A stretch of DNA of 64,000 bases, taken from positions 31,608,201 through 31,672,200 of the forward strand of contig CM034548.1 of assembly GCA_020055645.1 (NCBI GenBank). Direction: 5' to 3'. The DNA is from Tomocerus qinae. Lineage: Eukaryota > Arthropoda > Collembola > Entomobryomorpha > Tomoceridae. The notes beneath the pieces are model-generated. The model searched no databases, was not told where the DNA came from, and worked only from the letters and a program-made list of their open reading frames with translations. A program made the translations under genes and the position numbers. Below are positions 5,785 to 9,850 of this stretch, piece after piece. Within the stretch, counting starts at the first letter, position 1. Each line of letters opens with the position of its first letter.

Positions 5785-5791
5785 TAGTGTT
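5785..5791 (+). repeat. Candidate target-site duplication, left copy
   Basis: TAGTGTT occurs here and again at 9844-9850 in the same orientation, at the two edges of the long palindrome. The inner GTGT (5787-5790 and 9846-9849) abuts the perfectly symmetric element ends exactly, so the duplication could be read as 4 bp with symmetric ends TAGTAG...CTACTA, or as 7 bp with slightly unequal ends. Both readings give the same empty site (ACTTTAGTGTTCTTG). The copy number and position are observed; the origin by transposition is inferred. Confidence 0.6.
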
Positions 5792-5827
5792 AGTAGTAAG
5801 TATACTACGGTCTACGGCTCAAGCATT

Positions 5828-5980
5828 GATAGGTATGCCCCTACTCCTTATACATGGAAAGGTATGCATCTACCTCAGTGCCGAGTTTAAGGGTATGAAT
5901 TTACTCTCCCTTATGGATAGGTATGCCCCCTACTCCTTATACATGAAAGGCATGTAAATACCTCTGAGTGTTGAGTTATA
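5828..5980 (+). repeat. Subterminal iterated motifs, left arm
   Basis: Two imperfect copies of a unit of about 62 bp start at 5828 and 5916 (88 bp apart). Each contains GATAGGTATGCCCC, then CTACTCCTTATACATG, then a CTCAGTG/CTGAGTG-type end. Within and between them, the hexamer GGTATG (last copy GGCATG) recurs at 5832, 5861, 5892, 5920 and 5949, spaced 28-31 bp. Such regularly spaced motifs just inside a terminus are typical of transposase or replication-protein binding sites in DNA transposons; that role is inferred here. Confidence 0.6.
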
Positions 5981-6074
5981 GTGTGTGAACTACATCTCAT
6001 ATCACTCTGTTACAGTAAACTGCCTCAAACGGTCATTGGTAAAACAGTGGGGCGGGCGGGGTAGGCTGACAATT

Positions 6075-6092
6075 AATTTGAATATTCAAATT
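6075..6092. repeat. 18-bp perfect palindrome, left arm
   Basis: AATTTGAATATTCAAATT is its own reverse complement. It lies just inside the GC-rich GGGGCGGGCGGGG stretch (about 6050-6062) and has its mirror image in the right arm at 9544-9561. It could be a protein-binding site or simply AT-rich self-symmetry; function unknown. Confidence 0.5.
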
Positions 6093-6183
6093 CAGACCCC
6101 TATTAAAAACGGTTTTCATTTGTGGATATTTTTTATTATTTGGCAATAAAATCACAGATTTCCATTATAAAATTTTCATTTCA

Positions 6184-6229
6184 TATTATTATATATATTA
6201 TATATTATATTATTATATATATATTTCAT
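6184..6229. repeat. AT-only tract, left arm
   Basis: About 46 bp of almost uninterrupted A/T with TATTA and TATA runs. The mirror copy lies at about 9407-9452. It sits on the downstream side of the zinc-finger gene, outside its coding region. Confidence 0.6.
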
Positions 6230-6484
6230 ATTTCATGATTATTTTCATACCAGCGTACACTGGGATGTATTATATACAGGAACCCAATTAGTTTATTTAT
6301 TAGTATTATGACAGTCGCCCGAAGGAAATGAAGTCAATGCTCAGTGTTTAATATTTCGCAAACAAGAAAGATGCGATTGCAATTGACTAAAAATATATGA
6401 TTTTAAATGTTTTTTGTGATGCTTATGGGAATTTGGTGGGCATTTTGAATAATAAAATTACTAATATTTTTGTTATTAGATTTT

Positions 6485-6508
6485 TTTATTTCACGTATAG
6501 ATTTTATT
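6485..6508 (-). terminator. Poly(A) signals of the left zinc-finger gene
   Basis: Read on the minus strand, AATAAA occurs at 6508-6503, overlapping the stop codon, and again at 6490-6485. The same arrangement exists on the plus strand in the right arm after 9130. This supports a eukaryotic, polymerase II-type transcript for the gene. Whether they are used is not shown. Confidence 0.45.
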
Positions 6509-7160
6509 TCGTATTGAGTGCATCAACAATTGGGAAAAACAATTTCTTTGTTAATTTAAATCCGTCTTTTTCTGCTGCTTTCAGGATAACTCTTAAAATA
6601 TCCAATGACATATCCGTTAGTTCATCATCCCCATTTTCATCATCTTCATCATCAGTTTCAGCATCGTCATTTTCAGTTTCTCCGTCTTCTTCACTTTCAT
6701 TGTCCTCTTCATCTTCATCGTCACATAATTCAGATTTATCTCCACAAACTTCTTCATGGGTCTTTGTGCAATTCAGTAATGATTTCAGCAAATTTTTGCT
6801 AAGCTTAATATAATTAAATTCTGCATTATGCACCATTCTTTGAAACATCTTAATGCATTCGGTTGAAAATTCTTCGTTTTCACTTGAGTCAGCATTTGAT
6901 TCCAAATTACTGTCACCAGAGTTGGATTCTTCTTCAGAATGATCATTTTGTTCAAAATTAGAATATTTGTTCTTTAGAGGATTCAAAGTGTAATTTATTT
7001 GCGTGGCTTCATCATCCGATTCAATGTTAGAATATTTTCTTTTACGCCCAAGTTTATCAATGGATGAACCCCCAGACTGTCTTTTACCATGTACTTCTCT
7101 TTGATGTCGGAATAAATTTCCATTATTATAATAGCATTTTCCGCAAGTTTTGCATTCCAT
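6504..7160 (-). CDS. Small C2H2 zinc-finger protein with acidic C-terminal region (intact copy)
   Basis: The product is 218 aa from the ATG at 7160; a longer frame exists only by starting at a TTG. One C2H2 finger lies at the very N-terminus: C3-X2-C6-X12-H19-X4-H24, with F17/R18 before the first histidine. A basic patch follows (GRKRK, residues 38-42), likely nuclear localisation. A Ser/Glu-rich linker (about 75-97) leads to a hydrophobic stretch (105-131) and a strongly acidic block (147-183, mostly D/E), ending in a hydrophobic and basic tail (184-218). The single finger suggests DNA or protein binding, and the acidic block resembles acidic activation or histone/basic-protein-binding regions; neither is proven. 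It has no catalytic motif of a transposase. It is transcribed outward from the element centre, head to head with a broken copy at 8482-9132. A splice-acceptor-like TTACATTTCAG lies 15 nt upstream of the ATG, so a 5' non-coding exon is possible. I do not recognise a named family. Confidence 0.7.
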   Translation of the reverse strand: MECKTCGKCYYNNGNLFRHQREVHGKRQSGGSSIDKLGRKRKYSNIESDDEATQINYTLNPLKNKYSNFEQNDHSEEESNSGDSNLESNADSSENEEFSTECIKMFQRMVHNAEFNYIKLSKNLLKSLLNCTKTHEEVCGDKSELCDDEDEEDNESEEDGETENDDAETDDEDDENGDDELTDMSLDILRVILKAAEKDGFKLTKKLFFPIVDALNTK

Positions 7161-7175
7161 CTTCAATAATTATAA

Positions 7176-7186
7176 CTGAAATGTAA
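7176..7186 (-). promoter_or_regulatory. Possible splice acceptor upstream of the left zinc-finger ATG
   Basis: On the minus strand this reads TTACATTTCAG, a pyrimidine-containing stretch ending in CAG, 15 nt before the start codon. The mirror site is 8456-8466. If real, the transcript starts further toward the element centre and has a 5' leader intron. Confidence 0.3.
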
Positions 7187-7207
7187 TAATTGATACTTTC
7201 AGGAGCA

Positions 7208-7242
7208 GTTATGTTGTGTTATGTTGTGTTCAGTTGCTGAAC
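7208..7242. repeat. Short tandem and hairpin upstream of the left zinc-finger gene
   Basis: TTATGTTGTG is repeated twice in tandem, followed directly by GTTCAGttgCTGAAC (7228-7242), a 6-bp stem with a 3-nt loop. The mirror copy lies at about 8400-8434. The position between gene and pentamer array is compatible with an upstream regulatory region, but there is no direct evidence. Confidence 0.35.
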
Positions 7243-7374
7243 GTACAATGAAGTAAATATTAACAGACACAACACTTTTGTCTTTGCATACGTAATACAT
7301 CACGATGCAATGCAATATACTATATTTTTATGTAAAAAGATGCAATGTCATGCGAAGTGATATTATGCATTTGC

Positions 7375-7690
7375 ATTATGATGCGATGTGGTACAAGGCG
7401 ACACAATACAATGCGATGCAATACAATACAATGCGATGCAATACGATGCGATGTAATAAAATACAATGCGATGTAATACAATACAATGCGATCCAATACG
7501 ATGCGATGCAATACAATGCGATTCAATATAATGCGATGCAATGCGATACAATACAATGCGATGCAATACAATGCGATTCAATATAATGCGATGCAATACA
7601 ATGCAATTCAATATAATGCGATGCGATGCGATACAATACAATGCGATGCAATAAGATACAAATCAATGCATTATGATGTATGCATTAACA
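7375..7690 (+). repeat. Degenerate pentamer array (RATRC)n, left arm
   Basis: About 60 five-base units, nearly all fitting A/G-A-T-A/G-C (AATAC, AATGC, GATGC, GATAC and variants such as GATTC, AATAT). Indels that break the 5-nt phase are rare. Because 15 nt spans five codons without stops, all frames here appear open and give spurious repetitive frames of 60-93 codons; these are not genes. The array separates the zinc-finger gene from the element centre. Confidence 0.8.
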
Positions 7691-7763
7691 TGCACTTCGA
7701 TACAATAATTTAAGGGGAATGCAATGCACTACAATTCGATGCATCATGATAAGATACAGTCTT

Positions 7764-7878
7764 GCGGTAGAGTAACCGCAGTGCGGTTTTTGAGTCCGCA
7801 TTGCGGTTTTGCAGACCGCAGTGCGGTTTTTCAGATCGCAATGCGGACTCAAAAACCGCACTGCGGTTACTCTACCGC
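7764..7878. promoter_or_regulatory. Central array of five CCGCANTGCGG palindromes at 20-bp spacing
   Basis: CCGCANTGCGG-type 11-mers start at 7776, 7796, 7816, 7836 and 7856, exactly 20 bp apart (the fourth begins TCGCA). Half-sites TTGCGG (near 7763) and CCGCAA (near 7875) bound the set. The third motif (7816-7826, centre 7821) lies precisely on the symmetry axis of the whole 4-kb palindrome. The block is GC-rich in an AT-rich setting. Twenty bp is about two helical turns, so bound dimers would face the same side. A shared divergent promoter/operator, a replication origin or a recombination site are all compatible; which one is inference. Confidence 0.65.
7806..7836 (+). other. Asymmetric 31-nt core of the palindrome
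   Basis: This is the only central part not mirrored between arms. On both sides of the central 11-mer the flanking bases match each other directly (GTTTTGCAGA before, TTTTTCAGAT after) rather than as reverse complements, so the core has a polarity that the arms lack. It would form the loop if a strand folded back. Confidence 0.6.
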
Positions 7879-7951
7879 AAGACTGTATCTTATCATGATG
7901 CATCGAATTGTAGTGCATTGCATTCCCCTTAAATTATTGTATCGAAGTGCA

Positions 7952-8267
7952 TGTTAATGCATACATCATAATGCATTGATTTGTATCTTATTGCATCGCA
8001 TTGTATTGTATCGCATCGCATCGCATTATATTGAATTGCATTGTATTGCATCGCATTATATTGAATCGCATTGTATTGCATCGCATTGTATTGTATCGCA
8101 TTGCATCGCATTATATTGAATCGCATTGTATTGCATCGCATCGTATTGGATCGCATTGTATTGTATTACATCGCATTGTATTTTATTACATCGCATCGTA
8201 TTGCATCGCATTGTATTGTATTGCATCGCATTGTATTGTGTCGCTTTGTATACATCGCATCATAATG
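7952..8267 (-). repeat. Degenerate pentamer array, right arm
   Basis: Mirror image of 7375-7690, reading GYATY on the plus strand (TGCAT, CGCAT, TGTAT units). Near its outer end the match to the left arm is interrupted by the small change cluster at about 8243-8275. As on the left, the many overlapping open frames are by-products of the repeat. Confidence 0.8.
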
Positions 8268-8481
8268 CAAAATGCATAATATCACTTCGCATGACTTTGC
8301 ATCTTTTTACATAAAAATATAGTATATTGCATTGCATCGTGATGTATTACGTATGCAAAGACAAAAGTGTTGTGTCTGTTAATATTTACTTCATTGTACG
8401 TTCAGCAACTGAACACAACATAACACAACATAACTGCTCCTGAAAGTATCAATTATTACATTTCAGTTATAATTATTGAAG

Positions 8482-9132
8482 ATGGAATGCAAAACTTGCG
8501 AAAATGCTATTATAATAATGGAAATTTATTCCGACATCAAAGAGAAGTACATGGTAAAAGACAGTCTGGGGTTCATCCATTGATAAACTTGGGCGTAAAA
8601 GAAAATATTCTAACATTGAATCGGATGATGAGCTACGCAAATAAATTACACTTTGAATCCTCTAAAGAACAAATATTCTAATTTTGAACAAAATGATCAT
8701 TCTGAAGAAGAATCCAACTCTGGTGACAGTAATTTGGAATCAAATGCTGACTCAAGTGAAAACGAAGAATTTTCAACCGAATGCATTAAGATGTTTCAAA
8801 GAATGGTGCATAATGCAGAATTTAATTATATTAAGCTTAGCAAAAATTTGCTGAAATCATTACTGAATTGCACAAAGACCCATGAAGAAGTTTGTGGAGA
8901 TAAATCTGAATTATGTGACGATGAAGATGAAGAGGACAATGAAAGTGAAGAAGACGGAACTGAAAATGACGATGCTGAAACTGATGATGAAGATGATGAA
9001 AATGGGGATGATGAACTAACGGATATGTCATTGGATATTTTAAGAGTTATCCTGAAAGCAGCAGAAAAAGACGGATTTAAATTAACAAAGAAATTGTTTT
9101 TCCCAATTGTTGATGCACTCAATACGAAATAA
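8482..9132 (+). pseudogene. Broken second copy of the C2H2/acidic protein gene
   Basis: It is the mirror of 6504-7160. Compared with the intact copy it lacks one G at about 8500 (GCGGAAAA to GCGAAAA), one G at about 8570 (GGGGG to GGGG) and one base at about 8631. A later 3-nt loss at about 8957 removes one Glu from the acidic block in frame. From the ATG at 8482 translation would stop at the TGA at 8581 after 33 codons, losing the second half of the finger. A different ATG at 8487 reads the finger frame from the tyrosines onward but lacks both cysteines. The three single losses together restore the original frame, so codons from about 8653 to the TAA at 9130 remain open and nearly identical to the intact copy. 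The breaks may be genuine decay or uncorrected base-calling errors in a palindrome; two of the three sit in G runs. Confidence 0.7.
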
Positions 9133-9152
9133 AATCTATACGTGAAATAAAA
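9126..9152 (+). terminator. Poly(A) signals of the right gene copy
   Basis: AATAAA overlaps the TAA stop at 9130-9132, and a second one follows within 20 nt. They mirror the signals at 6485-6508 and are unchanged between the arms. Confidence 0.4.
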
Positions 9153-9655
9153 AAATCTAATAACAAACATATTAGTAATTTTATTATTCAAAATGCCCAC
9201 CAAATTCCCATAAGCATCACAAAAAACATTTAAAATCATATATTTTTAGTCAATTGCAATCGCATCTTTCTTGTTTGCGAAATATTAAACACTGAGCATT
9301 GACTTCATTTCCTTCGGGCGACTGTCATAATACTAATAAATAAACTAATTGGGTTCCTGTATATAATACATCCCAGTGTACGCTGGTATGAAAATAATCA
9401 TGAAATATGAAATATATATATAATAATATAATATATAATATATATAATAATATGAAATGAAAATTTTATAATGGAAATCTGTGATTTTATTGCCAAATAA
9501 TAAAAAATATCCACAAATGAAAACCGTTTTTAATAGGGGTCTGAATTTGAATATTCAAATTAATTGTCAGCCTACCCCGCCCGCCCCACTGTTTTACCAA
9601 TGACCGTTTGAGGCAGTTTACTGTAACAGAGTGATATGAGATGTAGTTCACACAC

Positions 9656-9808
9656 TATAACTCAACACTCAGAGGTATTTACATGCCTTTCATGTATAAG
9701 GAGTAGGGGGCATACCTATCCATAAGGGAGAGTAAATTCATACCCTTAAACTCGGCACTGAGGTAGATGCATACCTTTCCATGTATAAGGAGTAGGGGCA
9801 TACCTATC
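9656..9808 (-). repeat. Subterminal iterated motifs, right arm
   Basis: Mirror image of 5828-5980, with CATACC hexamers (for example 9799-9804) spaced about 29 bp. It is identical to the left arm over the stretch compared. With the left block it gives each element end the same motif array facing inward, as expected if one protein recognises both ends. Confidence 0.6.
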
Positions 9809-9843
9809 AATGCTTGAGCCGTAGACCGTAGTATACTTACTAC

Positions 9844-9850
9844 TAGTGTT
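9844..9850 (+). repeat. Candidate target-site duplication, right copy
   Basis: TAGTGTT, the direct repeat of 5785-5791. See that entry for the 4-bp versus 7-bp reading. Confidence 0.6.

Follow-up and report, generated by a model that had tools for sequence, protein, structure and literature searches.

Positions 5792-9844 of a 64,000-nucleotide stretch of the genome of the collembolan Tomocerus qinae (CM034548.1, 31,608,201 to 31,672,200; here called the window) hold a palindromic element of 4053 bp. This element is probably a non-autonomous satellite of the Polinton/Maverick class, with arms kept symmetric by snap-back, hairpin-type protein-primed replication. Its Polinton identity is strongly supported, and its mode of replication we infer. 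Given the ends in common with integrase-bearing elements, the palindrome family to which it belongs is probably moved in trans by full-size relatives in the same genome; an initial annotation made from the letters of the window had raised mobilization in trans as a possibility.

The window element and its termini

The arms of the element, 5791 to about 7820 and about 7822 to 9845, are reverse complements and 98-100% complementary across four main matched blocks, which bears out the near-perfect arms of about 2.0 kb described by the initial annotation. The symmetry ends as sharply as had been noticed, stopping exactly at 5792 and 9844, the limits set by script at AGTAGT...ACTACT. An exact 6-bp duplication, AGTGTT, abuts AGTAGT on either end (5786-5791 and 9845-9850); the 7-bp TAGTGTT and 4-bp GTGT proposed earlier are shifted or partial readings of it. 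Vertebrate Mavericks have 6-bp duplications and (AGT)2//(ACT)2 ends, as described in PMC8097293, and by these criteria the element resembles Polintons/Mavericks (adintovirus-like). The duplication and the termini therefore group it with Polintons/Mavericks, not with Foldback elements, and the suggestion of an unrelated new element family is not supported. Together with ends common to integrase-bearing elements of the same genome, these are the traits of a non-autonomous Polinton/Maverick. Genome searches gave no integrase or protein-primed polymerase (pPolB) match in the window element, and the encoding of both is what marks an autonomous Polinton. Its features are as follows (aa, amino acids; TIR-A denotes the family with the termini of the window element).

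5786-5791: left target-site duplication, AGTGTT (script on ends)
9845-9850: right target-site duplication, AGTGTT (script on ends)
5792-9844: complete palindromic Polinton-class element, 4053 bp, AGTAGT...ACTACT (arm alignment, script on ends)
5792-6085, plus strand: left terminal region, common to other TIR-A elements (genome search)
9551-9844, minus strand: right terminal region, the reverse complement of the left one
6504-7160, minus strand: intact left-arm gene of 218 aa, encoding one C2H2 finger and then an acidic protein
8476-9132, plus strand: right-arm gene copy, frameshifted by small indels
7381-7669, plus strand: 15-bp minisatellite ATGCGATGCAATACA, left arm
7975-8260, minus strand: mirror of the 15-bp minisatellite, right arm
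7764-7878: central hairpin, core A, with a 42-bp stem and an asymmetric 31-nt spacer (7806-7836)

The zinc-finger/acidic protein is the only gene recognized in the window element, and its C2H2 finger (E 2.5e-5) falls slightly short of the cut-off of Pfam. The gene is present in both arms, as the initial annotation held, although only the left copy is intact; in the gene region, four small gaps and a single substitution set the right arm apart from the left. These small-indel defects may in part be sequencing errors of the type treated in PMC7229812, which describes nanopore errors after inverted-duplicate junctions. Other open reading frames (ORFs) reach at most 159 aa and lie within the span of the gene itself, the minisatellite, the centre, the mirror arm, or the flank. 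No capsid gene was recognized in the window element, whose other ORFs were not searched against families. The 31-nt spacer of the central hairpin is unpaired, and the fold has a z of -17.5 against shuffles. Elsewhere in the window there is no further ORF of 150 aa, and the window has no Rfam match at gathering scores.

Palindromic and full-size relatives in the genome

The first 310 bases of the element (5791-6100) have at least 70 matches in the genome (334 Mb in 115 contigs) in a search with 40 of 134 candidates scored, and the zinc-finger protein has 99. Single-copy status, which the initial annotation had named as a refutation of its proposal, does not hold with at least 70 matches; the dispersed family with the zinc-finger/acidic protein carried twice as its sole recognized gene stands. 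Of 14 elements tested, the window element included, 12 have an exact 6-bp duplication next to AGTAGT on each side; in the two exceptions, L012 and L014, the script found one side without an intact tip. Of the copies and empty sites to be looked for, many copies with the same duplication length were thus recovered and no paralogous empty site, as a query made of the joined flanks matched nothing except the window's own flanks. In IMG/VR, a pattern-based scan gave no relatives of the zinc-finger protein or of the integrase.

A table of elements yields 31 with two ends, of which 17 are TIR-A and 14 belong to a sister family, TIR-B, with only the terminal AGTAGTA in common with TIR-A. It was compiled from 47 of 70 TIR-A, 43 of 63 TIR-B, 42 of 127 integrase, 40 of 137 ATPase, 46 of 132 pPolB, and 43 of 99 zinc-finger rows, and from 28 of 41 and 9 of 39 rows for the central hairpins core B and core A; omitted rows are weaker, split, or overlapping, and by eye no omitted integrase, ATPase, or pPolB row alters the table. 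The TIR-A elements comprise nine of 9.6-10.6 kb with integrase and packaging-ATPase matches (e.g., C3:49041916-49051528 and C1:29761913-29771554), six zinc-finger palindromes at six separate places, and two single-gene zinc-finger copies. The TIR-B elements comprise four complete Polintons of 14.5-17 kb with integrase, ATPase, and pPolB matches, six inverted pPolB pairs, two elements of unknown cargo, and two inverted zinc-finger pairs, whose gene is related to that of the window.

The nine TIR-A integrase elements are the likely source of integrase for the window family. The first ~150-210 bp of the left terminal region (5792-6085) are also common to these 9.6-kb elements, in some of which the integrase frame is split or carries stops. 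ORFs were listed for two of the nine. One long element annotated has an rve integrase (7e-10) and a Pox_A32-type ATPase (6.8e-5), and its protease match is weak (0.011, below the cut-off of Pfam); the four further ORFs scanned gave three blanks and one weak DUF4667 match (0.016). Some ORFs of these elements are putatively capsid-type, by resemblance and not by a database match. No integrase or ATPase match was found in 16 palindromic or presumed palindromic elements (126 of 355 integrase and 148 of 148 ATPase candidates scored), and the zinc-finger gene has no match in the 13 integrase-bearing two-ended elements.

The TIR-B pPolB palindromes are ~13 kb long and carry pPolB in both arms. The polymerase family PF03175 has 83 matches in this genome and none in 14 control genomes. 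In the six inverted pPolB pairs that were fetched, the arms align at 99.0-100% in matched pieces, with lower values near the centre (95.5-97.7% in two centres falling inside one locus), and the two palindromes traced to both ends each have 6-bp duplications; four further ones, at C1:851262, C1:31423293, C1:46480530, and C3:45931833, are known from search coordinates only. Measured from one end, the first pPolB match begins at 3.26-3.32 kb in the three of the four complete Polintons that allow the measurement, at 3.27 kb in palindrome C1:67600607-67613550, and at 3.4-3.6 kb in other palindromes. In all four complete Polintons, the pPolB-side end is nearer to the palindrome terminus (83-85% over 343 bp) than the other end (80-81% over 236 bp). 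From the matching distance and the likeness of this end, a pPolB palindrome resembles a mirrored copy of that end of a Polinton which carries pPolB. The two elements of unknown cargo (C1:51628486-51640168 and C9:30300-42566) have TIR-B ends with core B at or near the middle and are presumed to be palindromic; they give no pPolB, integrase, or zinc-finger match, and a 1.2-kb piece of the former (L059) holds one ORF of at least 50 aa, of 90 aa.

Each family has its own central hairpin. Core A lies 3-94 bp off the middle in all six TIR-A palindromes, and core B 1-323 bp off the middle in each of the eight TIR-B elements that have two ends and hold either pPolB pairs or unknown cargo. In the pPolB pairs at C1:48.02 and C1:45.43 Mb, the ends of which were not fetched, core B is likewise only a few bp from the centre of symmetry. 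Core B is common to pPolB palindromes and several zinc-finger palindromes. A search with all 28 candidates scored found it in no complete Polinton of the four, the sequences of which were not fetched and may contain a diverged or short half-core. A common promoter or terminator is disfavored as the cause of core B conservation, since the genes run outward (divergent) in zinc-finger palindromes and inward (convergent) in pPolB palindromes. Flip/flop orientation of the asymmetric centre was dropped as a candidate, as it mirrors insertion orientation only. Copies of core A at 75-78% flank the gene inside TIR-B arms, one of them ~690 bp off the middle of C1:136042859-136048505 and another ~487 bp from the core of the C1:48.6 Mb element. 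This suggests that the TIR-A palindromes may have originated when a hairpin within an arm of the B type underwent a new fold-back.

Own arms are in general the closest relatives of each other. When substitutions alone are counted over the gene region, the two arms of a zinc-finger palindrome differ by 0.0-0.8% in nine of ten cases, set against 0.4-21% between palindromes, and own arms are mutually nearest in eight of ten, L009 and L039 being the exceptions. The single-arm copies L011, L014, L018, L019, L041, and L042 are in the zinc-finger table and outside this count. For pPolB pieces, own arms are 0.0-0.3% apart in six elements and 3.0-11.7% separates different elements; the close pair L047/48 and L053/54 differs by 0.3-0.4% between elements, leaving own arms clearly nearest in five of six. 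Apart from these stands L040 (C9:399000-404200), a distant zinc-finger palindrome with a protein ~42% identical and a different, near-perfect central hairpin, which self-aligns at 99.7% and is not matched by the query behind the zinc-finger table. A separate inverted repeat of 88%, at L010 5075-5494, flanks the copy at C1:39.48 Mb and lies outside the element.

Both cargo genes show the pattern of purifying selection in the ratio of nonsynonymous to synonymous divergence (dN/dS). For the zinc-finger gene, ten pairs were computed, the two with L036 being omitted because its piece has no long frame. The ratio is 0.08-0.24 in the six more diverged A-A or A-B pairs (dS above 0.04), 0.38 and 0.42 in two pairs within B, and 0.33 and 0.69 in two very close A pairs with few changes. 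For the pPolB piece, nine of 12 were tried and L048 and L051, having no open frame, were dropped; the remaining seven pieces form 21 pairs, and the ratio is 0.04-0.10 in the 18 with dS above 0.02. What the element itself contributes, in conserved form, is the zinc-finger/acidic protein, and our guess at its role is a DNA-end/hairpin or chromatin factor.

The single-gene zinc-finger copies L011 and L014 are 2.7 and 2.9 kb long. L011 derives from a palindrome by deletion, since it still has the centre and the first few bases of the opposite hairpin arm, and single-gene copies as progenitors were rejected in its case on this ground; L014, which is without a core, is probably a derivative likewise. 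Of the solo half-units that were to be looked for, one was found, L019 (~6830-9591; C1:80.781-80.784 Mb). L019 has one terminus and stops at the palindrome centre in a perfect mini-hairpin of 33 nt, beyond which the DNA is unrelated; by eye it has no matching 6-bp duplication. It is suggestive of an interrupted fold-back, in one case only.

Proposed snap-back replication and its alternatives

Polintons are thought to replicate via protein priming. In the mechanism favored here, the element would be excised or copied out of the chromosome, and replication would start at the AGTAGT ends with protein-primed pPolB provided in trans. The displaced single strand of the palindrome could then fold on itself, giving a hairpin duplex with one terminus and requiring no annealing of a second strand. 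Priming at this lone terminus and copying round the hairpin would restore the palindromic dimer and hold the arms identical in every cycle. A Polinton integrase supplied in trans, from elements such as the 9.6-kb ones with common ends, would finally join both identical ends at a 6-bp staggered cut. The earlier idea of a dimer of a hairpin-ended unit is close to this mechanism. We also entertain, tentatively and with much less confidence, a multipartite helper-dependent Polinton system, in which the 9.6-kb TIR-A segments would carry integrase and capsid without a polymerase, the polymerase and zinc-finger segments would be palindromic, and each palindrome would have arisen by integration of the dimer of a linear replicon with hairpin ends, its central hairpin being functional.

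Several observations weigh against snap-back replication of a satellite. None of the nine integrase-bearing TIR-A elements gave a pPolB match, so the polymerase would have to come from TIR-B or other elements sharing only AGTAGTA, and the absence of integrase from the palindromes leans mostly on the search with 126 of 355 candidates scored. The centre is not always where it should be: core B is ~850 and ~600 bp off the symmetry centre of the arms in the pPolB pairs on C10 and C7 (ends not fetched) and 842 bp off the middle in the two-ended zinc-finger element C1:54466404-54474016, and the core B search found none in C1:136042859-136048505, where the L038 centre is alike by eye. Nor are arms always identical, as those of L039 are 3.3% apart, those of C3:45931833 match the pPolB query at 93 and 98%, and the left arm of L009 is 0.4% from the window copy and 0.7% from its own right arm. 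Furthermore, post-insertion gene conversion could also yield arm identity. As a rival account, it holds that the element is a Polinton satellite with a single fold-back origin, copied as ordinary double-stranded DNA and homogenized after insertion as in sex-chromosome palindromes. The high arm identity, however far elements have diverged, fits this account, as do the conserved centres, which suggest few origins. The diverged arms of C3:45931833, L039, and L009 remain uncorrected, however, and gene conversion leaves the origin of palindromes with exact Polinton termini unexplained; we regard it as unlikely, though deserving serious weight.

It is slightly less probable that the palindromes are accidental, recurrent defective Polinton genomes, by-products of adenovirus- or AAV-like (adeno-associated virus) snap-back that lack an independent life cycle. 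Among AAV subgenomes, snap-back genomes form a documented class (PMC8235507). When ranked by DNA identity to a single palindrome, the four complete Polintons with two ends (97, 97, 93, and 92%) are interleaved with the palindromes (89-100%), as by-products would be; the palindromes are therefore not one isolated lineage, which also counts against the favored account. Yet by-products would not be expected to have a family-specific centre that was not found in the four complete Polintons, or a zinc-finger gene that is under purifying selection and has no match in the 13 integrase-bearing two-ended elements. An assembly or sequencing foldback is highly improbable. The four gaps and one substitution of the right arm do resemble the nanopore errors noted above (PMC7229812), but the differing flanks, the exact 6-bp duplications, the asymmetric centre, and the occurrence at many loci, six of them TIR-A palindromes, speak against it, and single-arm relatives are assembled single-armed. 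A host-genome palindrome formed by break repair was dropped as a candidate, since the symmetry halts exactly at the transposon ends and the flanks differ.

Known systems and meaning of the palindromes

Compared with Polintons/Mavericks, with which it shares ends through the elements with rve integrase and packaging ATPase, the window element differs in being without a recognized integrase, polymerase, or capsid gene and in being fully palindromic, having a specific hairpin at its centre and one zinc-finger gene per arm. Foldback- or Galileo-type transposons likewise have very long, internally repetitive inverted repeats, and a minisatellite lies inside those of the window. They differ in transposase class, the source being a P-type transposase, and in duplication length, which is usually other than 6 bp, and were set apart without sequence comparison. 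Given the 6-bp duplication, the (AGT)2//(ACT)2 ends, and the termini common to rve-integrase/ATPase elements, we give this assignment almost no credence.

Palindromic defective adenovirus genomes show that a protein-primed linear replicon can give symmetric molecules with one genome end twice, although these are passage by-products and not integrated, gene-carrying families. AAV snap-back genomes, reported in PMC8235507 to replicate given helper functions, are similar as self-complementary subgenomic DNA with one genome end and helper-dependent replication. In contrast, AAV is a single-stranded parvovirus with hairpin inverted terminal repeats, and the window palindrome is integrated and dispersed, has its hairpin at the centre, and bears the ends of a Polinton.

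Ordinary Polinton derivatives that have lost autonomy would come as no surprise. A palindromic, cargo-carrying Polinton class with its own conserved centre was not found in the literature surveyed: no palindromic Polinton appears in titles and abstract starts of the full-text literature on Polintons/Mavericks (in part top-ranked papers only, with few subscription journals), and no such class in passages of PMC8097293, PMC2836005, PMC8235507, PMC7229812, and PMC12721341.

We know of no observed Polinton replication intermediates. Palindromic satellites with near-identical arms, a conserved centre, and selected genes provide a sequence record of Polinton replication and a means of testing it. 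Arm divergence may act as an insertion clock, comparable to long terminal repeat divergence in retrotransposons. The placement of integrase/capsid and polymerase/zinc-finger genes on different elements points to helper-satellite relations within one eukaryotic genome. The multipartite system, if true, would be a new life cycle of virus-like transposons, midway between adenovirus-like and parvovirus-like replication.

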